64,000 nt of DNA from Hyphomicrobiales bacterium (lineage in GTDB: Bacteria; Pseudomonadota; Alphaproteobacteria; Rhizobiales; Beijerinckiaceae): assembly GCA_028869185.1 (NCBI GenBank), contig JAGWTA010000015.1, forward strand, positions 1-64,000, given 5' to 3'. The notes beneath the pieces were generated by a model. It was given only the letters and a program-made list of their open reading frames with translations. It had not been told where the DNA came from and ran no database searches. Positions 18,661-23,316 of the stretch are shown here, in pieces. Position 1 is the first letter of the stretch. Every line of letters begins with the position of its first letter. The translations under genes and the position numbers were made by a program.

Positions 18661-18728
18661 AGGTGTAGATTCTATCATTGTCTGGAACCATCAGATCCCC
18701 TTTTGCGGGTATTGGGAAATTGGGCGAT

Positions 18729-19100
18729 ATGCAAAAGACGGTGCTCATTGTCGAGGACAACGAGCTGAATATGAGACTTTTCAACGACTTGTTGGAGGCT
18801 CATGGATATCGCACGCTTCAGACGCGCTCGGGCGTCGAGGCGGTGGCGCTGGCGCGCGAGCATCGCCCCAACCTGATCTTGATGGATATCCAGCTTCCGG
18901 AAGTGTCGGGTCTGCAGGTCACGCAATGGCTGAAGGACGACGAGCAGCTCAAGGCCATCCCGGTGGTGGCCATCACTGCTTTTGCGATGAAGGGGGATGA
19001 GGAAAAGATCCGCCAGGGGGGCTGCGAGGCTTATCTCTCCAAACCGATTTCGGTCGTGAAGTTTCTGGAAACCGTCCGCGCCTATGCGTCCGACGGCTGA
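18729..19100 (+). CDS. divK: DivK single-domain response regulator
   Basis: 123 residues, one receiver domain beginning [20 protein letters not shown]. The phospho-acceptor is D53 ([13 protein letters not shown]), with the conserved Thr/Lys in [13 protein letters not shown] and YLSKPI. DivK controls polarity and CtrA activity through DivL/CckA. The frame opens at 18678, but the ATG at 18729 matches the family start. pleD follows after nine bases. Confidence 0.96.
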
Positions 19101-19109
19101 GGGTTTGCC

Positions 19110-20480
19110 ATGACAGCGCGCGTACTCGTCGTCGACGATCTGCTGCCCAACATCAAGCTTCTGGAAGCGCGGCTGATCGTCGAATATTTCGACGTGCTGA
19201 CGGCGACCAACGGGCCCGATGCGATCGAGGCCTGCCGTGCGGGGCTTGCCGATATTGTCCTGCTCGACGTGATGATGCCGGGCATGGACGGATTTGAAGT
19301 CTGCCGCACGCTGAAGAGCGATCCGGCGACCGCGCATATCCCCGTCGTGATGGTGACCGCGCTCGATCAGGCGTCCGATCGCGTGAAGGGGCTCGACGCC
19401 GGCGCTGACGATTTTCTGACCAAGCCTGTCGATGAAATCGCCCTGATCGCGCGCGTGCGCTCGCTGGCGCGGCTGAAGGTCGCGATCGACGAATTGCGCG
19501 GGCGCGCGCAGAGTTCGGCTCGGCTCGGGCGCAACGATCCTTTCGTCGTCGCCACTGCGGCCGATGGGCTCAACGGCGACGTTCTGGTGGTGGACGACCG
19601 CGCAAGTTCGAGCGACCGCATCCAGTCTGCGCTGCGCAAGCAGCACACGGTCTGCATCGAGACCAACCCGCAGGAAGCCTTGTTCCGCGCCGCCGAACGC
19701 AAGTTCGACCTCGTGATCGTCAGCCTCGCGCTCGCCAATTACGACGCGCTGAGGCTTGCCAGCCAGTTGCGCTCGCTGGAGAGCACGCGCGCAACGCCGA
19801 TCCTGCTGATCGCCGATCTCGACGACCGCACCAAGGTGCTGCGCGGCCTCGATCTCGGCGTGAACGATTATCTCATGCGGCCGATCGACCAGAACGAATT
19901 GATCGCGCGCGTGCGCACGCAAATCCGGCGCCGGCGCTACGCCGACCATCTGCGCGACGATGTCGAGCAGGCGATCGAGGCGGCGGTGATCGATCCGCTG
20001 ACCGGCCTCTACAACCGCCGTTATTTCGACAGTTGCCTGCCGGCGCTGTTCAGCCAGGCGTCGCAGGGCGTCAAACCTCTGTCGCTGCTCGCCTTCGACA
20101 TCGACTTCTTCAAGCGCGTGAACGATACGCACGGGCATGACGCGGGCGACGAGGTTTTGCGCGCGCTTTCAGCGCGCGTGCGGCGCGCGGTGCGCAATAT
20201 CGACCTGGTCTGCCGGCTCGGCGGCGAGGAATTCGTCATCGTGATGCCCGATACGCCGATCGACGTTGCGGCGCGGGTGGCCGAACGCGTGCGCCGGTCG
20301 GTGGAGGCAGAGCCTTTCGGCGTGCAATCGGGCGCCGCGCTCGTGCCCGTGACGATTTCGATCGGGATTGCCGAACGCCAGCGCACGGGCAGCCCCGACG
20401 CGCTTTACAAGTCGGCCGACAAGGCGCTCTACGAATCGAAGACGCATGGCCGCAACCGGGTGACGCTGGCTGCGGCCTGA
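19110..20480 (+). CDS. pleD: PleD response regulator with diguanylate cyclase domain
   Basis: 456 residues. The first receiver carries D53 (LLDVMMPGMDG); the second receiver (about 155-275) lacks the usual acidic set and is an adaptor; the GGDEF domain follows with FDIDFFKRVNDTHGHDAGDEVLR and the active site GGEEF at 371-375. An inhibitory-site RxxD (RNID) sits five residues before it. It makes cyclic di-GMP when phosphorylated. It is cotranscribed with divK, the classical polarity and cell-cycle pair. Confidence 0.97.
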   Translation: MTARVLVVDDLLPNIKLLEARLIVEYFDVLTATNGPDAIEACRAGLADIVLLDVMMPGMDGFEVCRTLKSDPATAHIPVVMVTALDQASDRVKGLDAGADDFLTKPVDEIALIARVRSLARLKVAIDELRGRAQSSARLGRNDPFVVATAADGLNGDVLVVDDRASSSDRIQSALRKQHTVCIETNPQEALFRAAERKFDLVIVSLALANYDALRLASQLRSLESTRATPILLIADLDDRTKVLRGLDLGVNDYLMRPIDQNELIARVRTQIRRRRYADHLRDDVEQAIEAAVIDPLTGLYNRRYFDSCLPALFSQASQGVKPLSLLAFDIDFFKRVNDTHGHDAGDEVLRALSARVRRAVRNIDLVCRLGGEEFVIVMPDTPIDVAARVAERVRRSVEAEPFGVQSGAALVPVTISIGIAERQRTGSPDALYKSADKALYESKTHGRNRVTLAAA

Positions 20481-20581: not shown

Positions 20582-21043
20582 ATGTCCGAACTGAAAAACG
20601 AAATGCGCAAGGCCTTCGAGCACGCGAAGGACGCCGCCGAGCACGCGAAGGACGCCGCATCGGATACGGCGCAGAACGTGAAGGATACCGTTGTCGCCTC
20701 GACCGAAAGCGCGGACGTCGCCGCGCTCAAGGCTGATGTGGCGCGCCTTTCGCAGACGCTGGCCGATCTGGTGAAAAACCAGACCAATCAGGCGAGCGCA
20801 GCATTTTACGACGCGAGCGAGCGGGTTTCCTCCGCCGCGAGCGATGCCCGCGACCGCATCTCCAGCGCCGCAAGCGATGTGCGCGACAAGCTCGCCGACA
20901 GCGCATCGGATGCGCGAGACCGGCTGGGCGCTGTCAGCGGCGACCTCGAAGCCACAATCGAGCGGAACCCGCTGATGGCGGTCATTGCCGCCCTGATAGC
21001 CGGCATTTTCGTCGGCATGATGTCGCGCGGTTCGCGGCGCTGA
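20582..21043 (+). CDS. DUF883-like (ElaB/YqjD-type) membrane-anchored helical protein
   Basis: 153 residues. Residues 1-125 are an amphipathic helical region with repeats of the type ASDARDRISSAASDVRDKL, and residues 128-147 form a membrane helix followed by RGSRR. This is the ElaB/YqjD layout, tail-anchored inner-membrane proteins linked to stationary phase and ribosome binding in enterics. The EcfG-type promoter fits a general-stress role. The next gene begins three bases after the stop. Confidence 0.85.
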   Translation: MSELKNEMRKAFEHAKDAAEHAKDAASDTAQNVKDTVVASTESADVAALKADVARLSQTLADLVKNQTNQASAAFYDASERVSSAASDARDRISSAASDVRDKLADSASDARDRLGAVSGDLEATIERNPLMAVIAALIAGIFVGMMSRGSRR

Positions 21044-21046
21044 CGC

Positions 21047-21592
21047 ATGGACGGCGCTCCTCAGACAGGATCGTTCCTGCAGAGGCTGGTCGGCGACGCC
21101 GTCAGCCCCGTGAGCGAGGCGGCTGGCCGCCTCGCCCGCGCGGCCGTTCTGGGGCTGCTGGCGGGGCTGGCTTTCGCCGCCGCGCTCGCGGTCCTGACAT
21201 TTGCCGGCTACGCCTGGCTCGCCCCCCAGATCGGGCGCGCCTGGGCGATCACGGCGCTCGGCGGCGCCTGGCTGCTCGTGGCCATCGTCTTTGCGATGAT
21301 GGCTGCGAGCGCGACCAAGCGTCGAATCGCCGTTCCGCCGCCCGCGCCAGTTGCGGTCGCCGACACGCCCGAGGTTGAGGCTGCGCGTCGCGCCGCCGCC
21401 AATTTCGGTTCCACGGTCGACGGGTTCGTCGATCCGGTCGCGGGCGTCCTCAGCAGTCTCGGGCTCAAGACGGAAACCGTCGCGCTGCTTTCGGCCGCGC
21501 AGGTCGTCAAATCGCTGAAGCCGATCCATCTCGTCGGAGCGGCCATGGCGCTGGGCGTGATTCTCGGGGGCAACATCGGCAAGCGCCGCTGA
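21047..21592 (+). CDS. small membrane protein, phage-holin-family-like
   Basis: 181 residues with two adjacent hydrophobic helices (about 31-55 and 65-85), then a soluble segment and another hydrophobic stretch near the C-terminus (IHLVGAAMALGVILGG). The layout matches the holin-superfamily 3_6 type that often follows DUF883 genes. Lytic function is not implied. Cotranscription with DUF883 is suggested by a three-base gap. Confidence 0.7.
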   Translation: MDGAPQTGSFLQRLVGDAVSPVSEAAGRLARAAVLGLLAGLAFAAALAVLTFAGYAWLAPQIGRAWAITALGGAWLLVAIVFAMMAASATKRRIAVPPPAPVAVADTPEVEAARRAAANFGSTVDGFVDPVAGVLSSLGLKTETVALLSAAQVVKSLKPIHLVGAAMALGVILGGNIGKRR

Positions 21593-21614
21593 CACGCTCG
21601 CAAAGACGTAGGGG

Positions 21615-21638
21615 AAGGCCGCCGCAGGGCGGCTTTTT
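21615..21638 (+). terminator. intrinsic terminator after the DUF883/holin-like pair
   Basis: GCCGCC-GCAG-GGCGGC followed by five T. Confidence 0.75.
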
Positions 21639-21742
21639 CGCATTCACCACAAACGTTTATGTTAACAATGCATTTCCGGGCCGCGACGGTTTCTCGGCAT
21701 TGCTTTTCGGCCGCCCGCGCGTAATCTCGCTTTTGTCGAATA

Positions 21743-21852
21743 CCCTACGGAGTGCTCAGGTCCGCCGCATCTCCTGGGTCCGTGGGGTCGGCCGGTCGAC
21801 TGTCGGTTTAGGAGTGGCCTCCTCGAAACTGCGGTCGACCGGCCACCTTTTT
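21743..21852 (+). ncRNA. candidate structured small RNA, two hairpins ending in T5
   Basis: Hairpin 1: CCCTACGGA (21743-21751) and CTCAGG (21755-21760) pair with CCTGGG (21773-21778) and TCCGTGGGG (21779-21787), allowing G-U pairs, around a 12-base loop. Hairpin 2 is a rod: GGCCGGTCGAC (21790-21800) with GTCGACCGGCC (21834-21844), then CGGTTT with AAACTG, then AGGAG with CTCCT around TGGC. TTTTT (21848-21852) follows directly, so the rod acts as an intrinsic terminator. The apical stem holds AGGAG opposite CTCCT, Shine-Dalgarno and anti-Shine-Dalgarno sequences. No protein-like frame covers it. I could not match it with certainty to a named RNA family. The true 5-prime end is unknown. Confidence 0.65.
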
Positions 21853-21881
21853 CCAAGCAACAGCGCTTCTGTTCAGGCAAT

Positions 21882-21909
21882 AAAAAACGCGCCGATTGGC
21901 GCGTTTTTT
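21882..21909 (-). terminator. bidirectional intrinsic terminator, rpmG side
   Basis: AAAAAACGCGCC-GATT-GGCGCGTTTTTT, a perfect 12-bp stem with A and T runs on both sides, so it can stop rpmG transcription and any read-through from the upstream RNA candidate. Confidence 0.9.
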
Positions 21910-21928
21910 ATTGGGAAATTTGTGAAGA

Positions 21929-22096
21929 TTACTTGATCTTCGTTTCCGTGAACTCGACGTGCTTGCGCGCCACCGGGTCGTACTTCTTGAATTTCAGCTT
22001 TTCCGTCTTCGTGCGGGCGTTCTTCTTGGTCACGTAAAAGAAGCCGGTGTCCGCCGTGGACTGAAGCTTGATCTTGATGGTCGCGGCCTTGGCCAT
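21929..22096 (-). CDS. rpmG: 50S ribosomal protein L33
   Basis: A 55-residue gene, easily missed because it is short. It reads [20 protein letters not shown] and ends EFTETKIK, the standard L33 sequence in alphaproteobacteria. It lacks the zinc-binding Cys pairs (a C-minus form). A bidirectional terminator follows its stop. It is transcribed in the same direction as the MFS-NUDIX-DUF983-rnr block but about 100 bases beyond the MFS stop. Confidence 0.96.
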
Positions 22097-22197
22097 GGGA
22101 TTCGTCCAGTTTCATGCAAAGGAAAAAGGCCGGAGAACGCATTTTGTGCGATCCGGCCCGGAAGCTCGCGCGCAAAATAGCCGCCACGCGCGGTTTG

Positions 22198-23316
22198 TCA
22201 ACGCGGAAAGATGCGCAGCGCCATGACATAGGCGGCCAGCAGGCCGGCCAGCGCCCCGAACATGCCATGAGCGGGCGAGGCGTCGATGGCGGCGCCAAGC
22301 AGGGGCGGGCCAAGGAGCATGCCCAGCGCATAAAGCATGATGAAGGCGGCGTTGGCGGCGGCGAGTTCTGCGCCGTCGTAGACATCGCCGAGTTCGGCGA
22401 GGCCGACCATGTAGAGGCCGCCGAGCAGGCCAGCCCAGACGAACAGCAAGGGTGCGAAGGCCGGCGAGGCGGCGGAGAAAGCGAGCGCCAGCGACAGGAG
22501 CGCGCCTGCCGCCGCGATGATGCGCATGAGCCGACGCTTGTCGGTGCGGTCCGCCACGAGGCCGATCGGGATCTGAAAGACAGCGTTGGACAAGGCGATG
22601 AGCGTCACCAGCAGCGCAGCGTTGCGGGCATCGTAGCCGTTGCGCATCGCGTGAACCGGCGTCAGCCCCATGCCGCCGGCCTCGACGACGCCGAAAACGA
22701 GCGCCGCCAGCATGAGGGTCGGCGCGCGGGCGAACAGCGACGCAGAGCGCGGGGTCGGCGCGTCCGAAAAGCCCGGGATGGCGTTGCGCGCCAGCAGGAT
22801 CGGCGCCAGCGCCAGCACATGCAGGCCGACGCCAATATAAAGCGCCAGCGGCGTATCCGTTCCGGTAAGCCCGAGCAGCGCCGGGCCTACGGCGAAACCA
22901 AGGCCGAGGGCGGTGGAATAGACGCCAACCCAGAAGCCGCGCGAATCATCGGGCGCCATGGCGGTGATGGCGTATTCCGACAGGACGAACAGCGCCGAGA
23001 GCGCGCAGCTGTAAAAGAAGCGGATGGCGGTCCATGCCCCGACATTGTTCGTCGAGGCCAGCGCCAGCAGCGCGAGCGCGCCGAGCGCGGCGGCGGCCAG
23101 CAGCGTGTTCCCGATGCCGAGCCGGCGCGCCACGACCGGCGCAAGCGGCGAGGCGAAGAAGACCGCCAGACCCGCAACGGCGGTGCTTGCGCCATTGGCG
23201 CCGGCGCTGTAGCCCGCCGCCTCCATGCGCAGCGCAATGTAGGGGATGGTCAGCGACAGGCCTGCGCCGACGATGGCGATGGCCGCGATGGCCGCCAGCA
23301 GCGGCGCGCGGTTCAT
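22198..23316 (-). CDS. major facilitator superfamily transporter
   Basis: 372 residues with about twelve hydrophobic helices. The first helix pair and VARRLGIGN, and the central LVADRTDKRRLM between helices 8 and 9, match MFS drug/metabolite exporters of the YcaD type. Substrate is not predictable. The ATG at 23316 lies four bases after the NUDIX stop; the longer open frame upstream is the overlap with that gene. Confidence 0.88.
   Translation of the reverse strand: MNRAPLLAAIAAIAIVGAGLSLTIPYIALRMEAAGYSAGANGASTAVAGLAVFFASPLAPVVARRLGIGNTLLAAAALGALALLALASTNNVGAWTAIRFFYSCALSALFVLSEYAITAMAPDDSRGFWVGVYSTALGLGFAVGPALLGLTGTDTPLALYIGVGLHVLALAPILLARNAIPGFSDAPTPRSASLFARAPTLMLAALVFGVVEAGGMGLTPVHAMRNGYDARNAALLVTLIALSNAVFQIPIGLVADRTDKRRLMRIIAAAGALLSLALAFSAASPAFAPLLFVWAGLLGGLYMVGLAELGDVYDGAELAAANAAFIMLYALGMLLGPPLLGAAIDASPAHGMFGALAGLLAAYVMALRIFPR

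Follow-up and report, generated by a model that had tools for sequence, protein, structure and literature searches.

The window, the whole stretch of 64,000 nucleotides analyzed here, carries on its forward strand divK, a response regulator, and pleD, with two receivers and a GGDEF domain (18678-20480), assigned by Pfam matches and by the upstream synteny. The convergent neighbour is rpmG, which encodes ribosomal protein L33 (21929-22096, reverse strand, Pfam PF00471). The structured locus that concerns us spans positions 21743-21852 of the forward strand and is preceded by a hairpin with a run of five T (21621-21638) and followed by a hairpin shared with rpmG that is flanked on either side by A and T tracts (21883-21909). 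The initial annotation had placed the locus between a terminator of the upstream genes and that of rpmG, and both hairpins are indeed found at these places. A simple terminator scan of the region 20600-23000 gave 4 sites, including 21621-21638, against 2.7 (sd 1.7) in shuffled sequences. Two short ORFs cross the locus, one of 78 aa (+) and one of 72 aa (-), and neither has a Pfam match at E values up to 1. Two other small ORFs, of 153 and 181 aa, lie between pleD and the locus (20582-21592, +). They have weak, below-cut-off Pfam matches to an apolipoprotein-like domain and a holin-like family, they were found by tblastn (E ≤ 1e-4) upstream of the homologous locus in 0 of 133 related loci, and a viral scan with the small ORF at 20582 returned no relative.

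A covariance search against Rfam, which the initial annotation had proposed while being unable to name the family, assigns positions 21740-21849 (+) to the core of the EcpR1 sRNA (RF02500, also called Atu_C6). The match has 105.3 bits, for a gathering score of 60 bits, and covers positions 1-113 of the 113 of the model, with a 2-nt insertion and a 5-nt deletion in the second stem-loop of the window. As far as identity alone is concerned, this is almost certainly the gene of the trans-acting sRNA EcpR1. It is a further member of an already known RNA family. The genome from which the window comes (96% completeness) has a single match to RF02500, and 14 control genomes have none. Twelve sub-threshold Rfam matches at 21500-22200, most of them on the rpmG hairpin region, were taken as chance.

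The family is widespread in the order. Of 397 genomes, 271 have an RF02500 match with an E value of 0.001 or less, 223 of them over the cut-off, and in a sample of the class it occurs in 10 of 385 genomes, 8 of which belong to two families outside the order; both searches used stricter filters, with which weak matches are lost. All six genomes of the window's genus have EcpR1 over the cut-off. Several genera of the window's own family lack a match (8 listed for genus g4, 2 for g2, and 1 for g7, under strict filters), and EcpR1 may have been lost there or have diverged beyond the model.

The minimum free energy (MFE) fold of 21743-21852 consists of two strong hairpins, adjacent and extensively paired as annotated, with an energy of -63.9 kcal/mol (z -5.8) that was matched by 0 of 200 dinucleotide shuffles (-42.8 ± 3.6 kcal/mol). 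The z-score of a longer fold, 21735-21912, which includes the rpmG hairpin, is -8.0. Stem-loop 1 (SL1, 21743-21787) has 15 bp (8 + 7), as the initial annotation had approximately counted, and a 12-nt loop. This loop, UCCGCCGCAUCU at 21761-21772, is unpaired in the MFE fold of the window RNA and identical to the mRNA-pairing region of EcpR1 (PMC3927594, PMC4414408). It is the known functional part of the molecule, which the initial annotation had not singled out. A study of 2011 (PMC3927594) described the loop motifs UCCGCCGCAUCU and UCCUCG, of which the second is present in the window at 21820-21825 (TCCTCG), in stem-loop 2 (SL2, 21790-21844). SL2 is a long, terminator-like rod with 24 bp in the MFE fold rather than the 22 bp first counted. 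The T5 run (21848-21852) is where it had been reported, but the hairpins stop 3 nt before it instead of ending exactly at the run.

The T5 run could be the 3' end of a short form of the RNA, and a TTTT run is found near this position in only 38 of 125 relatives. The hairpin at 21883-21909 is a possible 3' end for longer forms; EcpR1 forms of 101, 142, and 171 nt are reported in Sinorhizobium meliloti (PMC4414408). A script alone picked out a weak candidate promoter, TTGCTT-N16-TAATCT (21700-21727, +), in which we have low confidence: it matches the consensus at 6 of 12 positions, is not among the sites of a sigma-70 scan, and has no common position across relatives. Nothing stood out by conservation in the region upstream of SL1 in relatives, and, unlike in S. 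meliloti, no promoter resembling the published one was recognised in the window.

The conservation of the structure was analyzed in a set of relatives that combined stretches with an exact 20-nt core pattern, of which there are at least 119 in genome contigs, with loci fetched from genomes, for a total of 177 sequences, or 125 once made non-redundant. In a global MAFFT/RNAalifold alignment of these 125 relatives the variable stems were misaligned and the consensus was weak, and the helices were therefore tested sequence by sequence. In 122 of the 125 relatives the basal helix of SL2 reaches 8 bp or more, against 44 when one arm is shuffled, and this is a variable stem, with 118 distinct pairs of arms. 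For the lower helix of SL1, 117 of 125 relatives reach 6 bp or more, against 69 with one arm shuffled. Over the whole alignment there are 59 two-sided changes, for a mean of 21.75 and a maximum of 32 in 200 shuffles. Hence, both helices are kept by compensatory change, which the initial annotation had suggested looking for; together with the covariance match, this supports its proposal of a small-RNA gene with a real structure. Loop 1 has at least 10 of its 12 nucleotides unpaired in the MFE folds of all 123 relatives that carry the motif. The motif itself served to find most of the relatives, so that its constancy in this set cannot count as independent evidence. Among 34 loci found by the covariance model, the 20-nt core is exact in 29, has one or two differences in 4, and was not found in 1.

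The genomic context is also conserved. Of the 102 related loci that have 3 kb or more of upstream sequence, 94 show a PleD-like match there on the same strand; some of these matches are short and near 30% identity and may therefore represent another response regulator. A convergent rpmG is present within 1.5 kb in 114 of the 143 loci with at least 600 nt downstream. EcpR1 with a PleD-like match upstream was also observed in 8 genomes of two families, f61 and f142, that are outside the window's order by the grouping used (L316-L323; the match is farther away in L323).

The closest point of comparison is EcpR1 of S. meliloti (SmelC291, sra33, smrC10), which has two stem-loops, an identical loop 1, and the UCCUCG motif in SL2, as in the window. 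Its gene lies between divK-pleD and rpmG (PMC4414408); the window has the same arrangement with convergent rpmG, unlike S. meliloti with the two small ORFs intervening between pleD and ecpR1. The S. meliloti RNA is reported to be expressed as an independent unit, to be induced in stationary phase and in response to stress, with ppGpp responsible for part of the induction, and to repress gcrA and dnaA via loop 1 in reporter assays (PMC4414408). Its action is described as Hfq-independent, with RNase E needed for the full effect on dnaA (PMC4414408). A putative EcpR1 was also reported next to rpmG in the methanotroph Methylosinus sporium 5, from mapped non-coding transcription units; it has two stem-loops, like that of the window, and the same orientation as in S. 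meliloti (PMC12403871).

The gcrA gene of the genome under study has a match to loop 1 in its leader. The sequence GTGCGGCGGACC, at about -127 from the ATG, can pair with loop 1 over 12 bp, one of them G-U, and the partner itself, GUGCGGCGGACC, spans about -127 to -116. The complement of loop 1 is thus found roughly 110-130 nt before the start codon, like in S. meliloti, where the site follows a transcription start (-122) at a distance of 13 nt (PMC4414408). The duplex of a 16-nt loop region with the gcrA leader has an energy of -27.3 kcal/mol, and 0 of 60 shuffled leaders were as good. The genome contains 5 exact copies of the 11-mer TGCGGCGGACC, against 4 of the backward control. One is in the gcrA leader, one, as the complement, in ecpR1 itself, and the other three have open frames around them. 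Across the genus, the exact 17-mer ATCTCGTGCGGCGGACC occurs once per genome, upstream of gcrA, in 6 of 6 genomes. Its 11-nt core starts at -126 to -135 from the gcrA ATG and is invariant at 11 of 11 positions, for 41 invariant columns out of 128 in the alignment from the core to the start codon.

The site has conserved surroundings. A palindrome (TACGACATCTCGTG in the genome under study) directly precedes it and may function as an operator or form a small hairpin at the 5' end of the gcrA mRNA. Because the site abuts this palindrome, part of its conservation could be that of a DNA element. Palindromes like YACGAYATVTCGTR, recognised by eye, also occur in genomes that lack the site, e.g. G024 and G041. 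Beyond the palindrome, further from gcrA, there is another invariant block, CTAGTGTAGCGTC. A second GGACC close to the ribosome-binding site of gcrA is invariant in the six genomes of the genus and could, at a guess, be a minor second contact for EcpR1. When the gcrA leader is folded, most of the site is predicted to be paired. A cofold of the leader with EcpR1 favours another interaction, by a method that cannot score loop-loop pairing; the ddG values of -10.1 to -13.3 compare with values for 100 shuffled loops that average -6.1 and go down to -13.3.

We then compared, across the order, gcrA leaders of genomes with and without EcpR1. From 53 EcpR1-positive genomes, including the one under study, 1 was dropped for lack of a GcrA match, and 31 of the remaining 52 had both an EcpR1 locus with the exact loop and a leader of at least 150 nt. 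Those left out were G005 (one change in the loop), G046 (132-nt leader, no loop found), and others, mostly without a fetched locus. From 27 EcpR1-negative genomes, 8 had no good GcrA match, leaving 19. Pairing was defined as contiguous pairing with loop 1, G-U allowed, at -150 to -80 of gcrA, and three cut-offs were tried. At least 10 bp are found in 10 of 31 genomes with EcpR1 and in 0 of 19 without (one-sided Fisher p 0.004), in counts that are not independent since the genomes are related, and with some EcpR1-less genomes possibly being misses of the strict search filters. Permuted loops gave a mean of 0.37 and a maximum of 9 at this cut-off, so that 0 of 400 reached 10. At 9 bp the figures are 11 of 31 (1 of 400 permutations gave as many) and 1 of 19, and at 11 bp they are 8 of 31 (1 of 400 permutations) and 0 of 19. 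The contrast is weaker with perfect matches only: 11 of 31 against 3 of 19 for 7 nt (p 0.12), 10 of 31 against 2 of 19 for 8 nt (p 0.077), and 7 of 31 against 0 of 19 for 9 nt (p 0.026). An exact match of at least 9 nt at -250 to +30 is found in 9 of the 52 EcpR1-positive genomes and in 1 of the 19 negative ones. Several families, though far from all, have kept the gcrA site. Targets in S. meliloti were predicted with CopraRNA, which weighs conservation over species (PMC4414408), so a gcrA site conserved across rhizobia is by itself no novelty.

Taken as a whole, the reading that we find probable is that the window encodes EcpR1 and that this RNA, when the cell is stressed, base-pairs through loop 1 with the leader of gcrA and reduces GcrA. 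Transcription, stress induction, repression of gcrA, and the effect on the cell cycle are inferred from S. meliloti, on whose model EcpR1 would accumulate when cells are stressed or in stationary phase. The exposed loop 1 (GGUCCGCCGCAU) would then pair with the partner GUGCGGCGGACC of the gcrA leader, and this pairing would lower GcrA and delay the progression of the cell cycle. SL2 would close and protect the RNA, and may serve as its terminator.

The main competitor, which we hold to be unlikely but worth keeping in mind, is that EcpR1 is made and has main targets other than gcrA, the block upstream of gcrA being a promoter or operator element that matches the loop by chance. It would account for the palindrome that, by eye, also precedes this position in genomes without the loop complement, and for the 21 of 31 EcpR1 genomes that lack a site of at least 10 bp, among which are both of the tested genomes with the exact loop that belong to the window's family but to other genera (G238 and G287). 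It also agrees with the study of M. sporium 5, in which no consistent targets were predicted for EcpR1 (PMC12403871), unlike the window's genus with its explicit gcrA site. Against it, the sites that differ in sequence (GTGTGGTGGACC, GTGTGGCGGACC, GTGCGGCGGACT, and GTGCGGCGGGTC) keep all 12 pairs with the loop through G-U, and none of the 19 EcpR1-less genomes carries 10 bp or more. Furthermore, the homologous interaction was shown in S. meliloti at a similar distance from the start codon, where one pair of matching changes in the sRNA and the leader partly restored repression and a second pair did not (PMC4414408).

The case of dnaA differs from that of S. meliloti. The window's genome has no good site for loop 1 at dnaA: the best exact match is 7 nt and the best duplex is -13.8, or -16.3 inside the coding start. 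Matches of at least 9 nt at dnaA occur in 4 of 49 genomes with EcpR1 and in 2 of 18 without, at no common position, with offsets counted from the model match instead of the ATG and a few starts imprecise. With neither a strong site nor a with/without pattern, dnaA was rejected as a target of EcpR1 here, and a dnaA target is not a defining feature of the family.

The apex of SL2 had attracted the attention of the initial annotation as a possible Shine-Dalgarno (SD)/anti-SD stem. The pairing itself is seen in the MFE fold, where AGGAG (21810-21814) pairs with CTCCT (21819-21823) across a TGGC loop, the latter being part of an anti-SD-like CUCCUC motif (21819-21824) that is predicted to be paired; this possibility at the apex is a difference from S. 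meliloti. The genus-mate G255 (L291) can also pair AGGAG with the motif. As a conserved feature, the switch did not hold. AGGAG is present in 11 of 124 non-redundant relatives, and the apical pairing as a whole is no commoner than after shuffling: all five pairs are possible in 14 of 124 relatives (mean 12.8 with the 5' strand shuffled) and at least four in 59 of 124 (mean 67.0). The inner GAG is common, being found within 8 nt in 72 of 124. Among the MFE folds of the 116 relatives that have the CUCCUC/UUCCUC motif, 32 leave its six bases entirely unpaired and 41 leave no more than two of them unpaired. The CUCCUC or UUCCUC strand is kept in 115 of 125 relatives, and it follows that what is conserved is the anti-SD-like strand and not its pairing. 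We take this strand to resemble the core of the 16S anti-SD.

Two ideas build on this strand. In the first, which is a rather doubtful extension, EcpR1 would have two effector loops: loop 1 would act on the fixed 12-nt gcrA site beside a small hairpin near the 5' end of the mRNA, in a far-upstream mode, and the CUCCUC of SL2 would be a second arm acting on ribosome-binding sites, masked here by AGGAG. In the second, the rod of SL2 would open and expose an anti-SD or SD mimic acting on ribosomes or SD sequences. The strong conservation of the strand and its pairing with AGGAG in the window and potentially in the genus-mate speak for such a switch, but with AGGAG in so few relatives and apical pairing not above that of shuffled sequences there is no conserved switch, and we regard this as very improbable. 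The EcpR1 literature examined, seen in part, yielded no function for SL2. Finally, the locus could belong only to the flanking genes, as a terminator or an inverted repeat devoid of sRNA function. This fits its position between two genes and its ending in T5, but is barely credible, given that the upstream genes and rpmG have hairpins of their own, that the family model fits over its whole 113 positions, and that homologues are an independent unit in S. meliloti (PMC4414408) and one of the non-coding transcription units of M. sporium (PMC12403871).

In the titles and abstract starts of the EcpR1 papers that our searches listed, we found neither a report of a gcrA site in the window's genus nor a comparison of genomes with and without EcpR1, and we do not claim that there are none. 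These results extend to another genus an sRNA known from related bacteria to hold back the cell cycle under stress. They also provide comparative evidence, in several families of the order, for the gcrA interaction that was tested in S. meliloti, whereas the control of dnaA by EcpR1 may not extend to several families as the interaction with gcrA does. A review of 2020 describes the mechanism by which pairing so far upstream in gcrA silences the mRNA as still unknown (PMC7143759). The fixed far-upstream site of gcrA, beside its palindrome, offers a concrete place to study silencing by such pairing.
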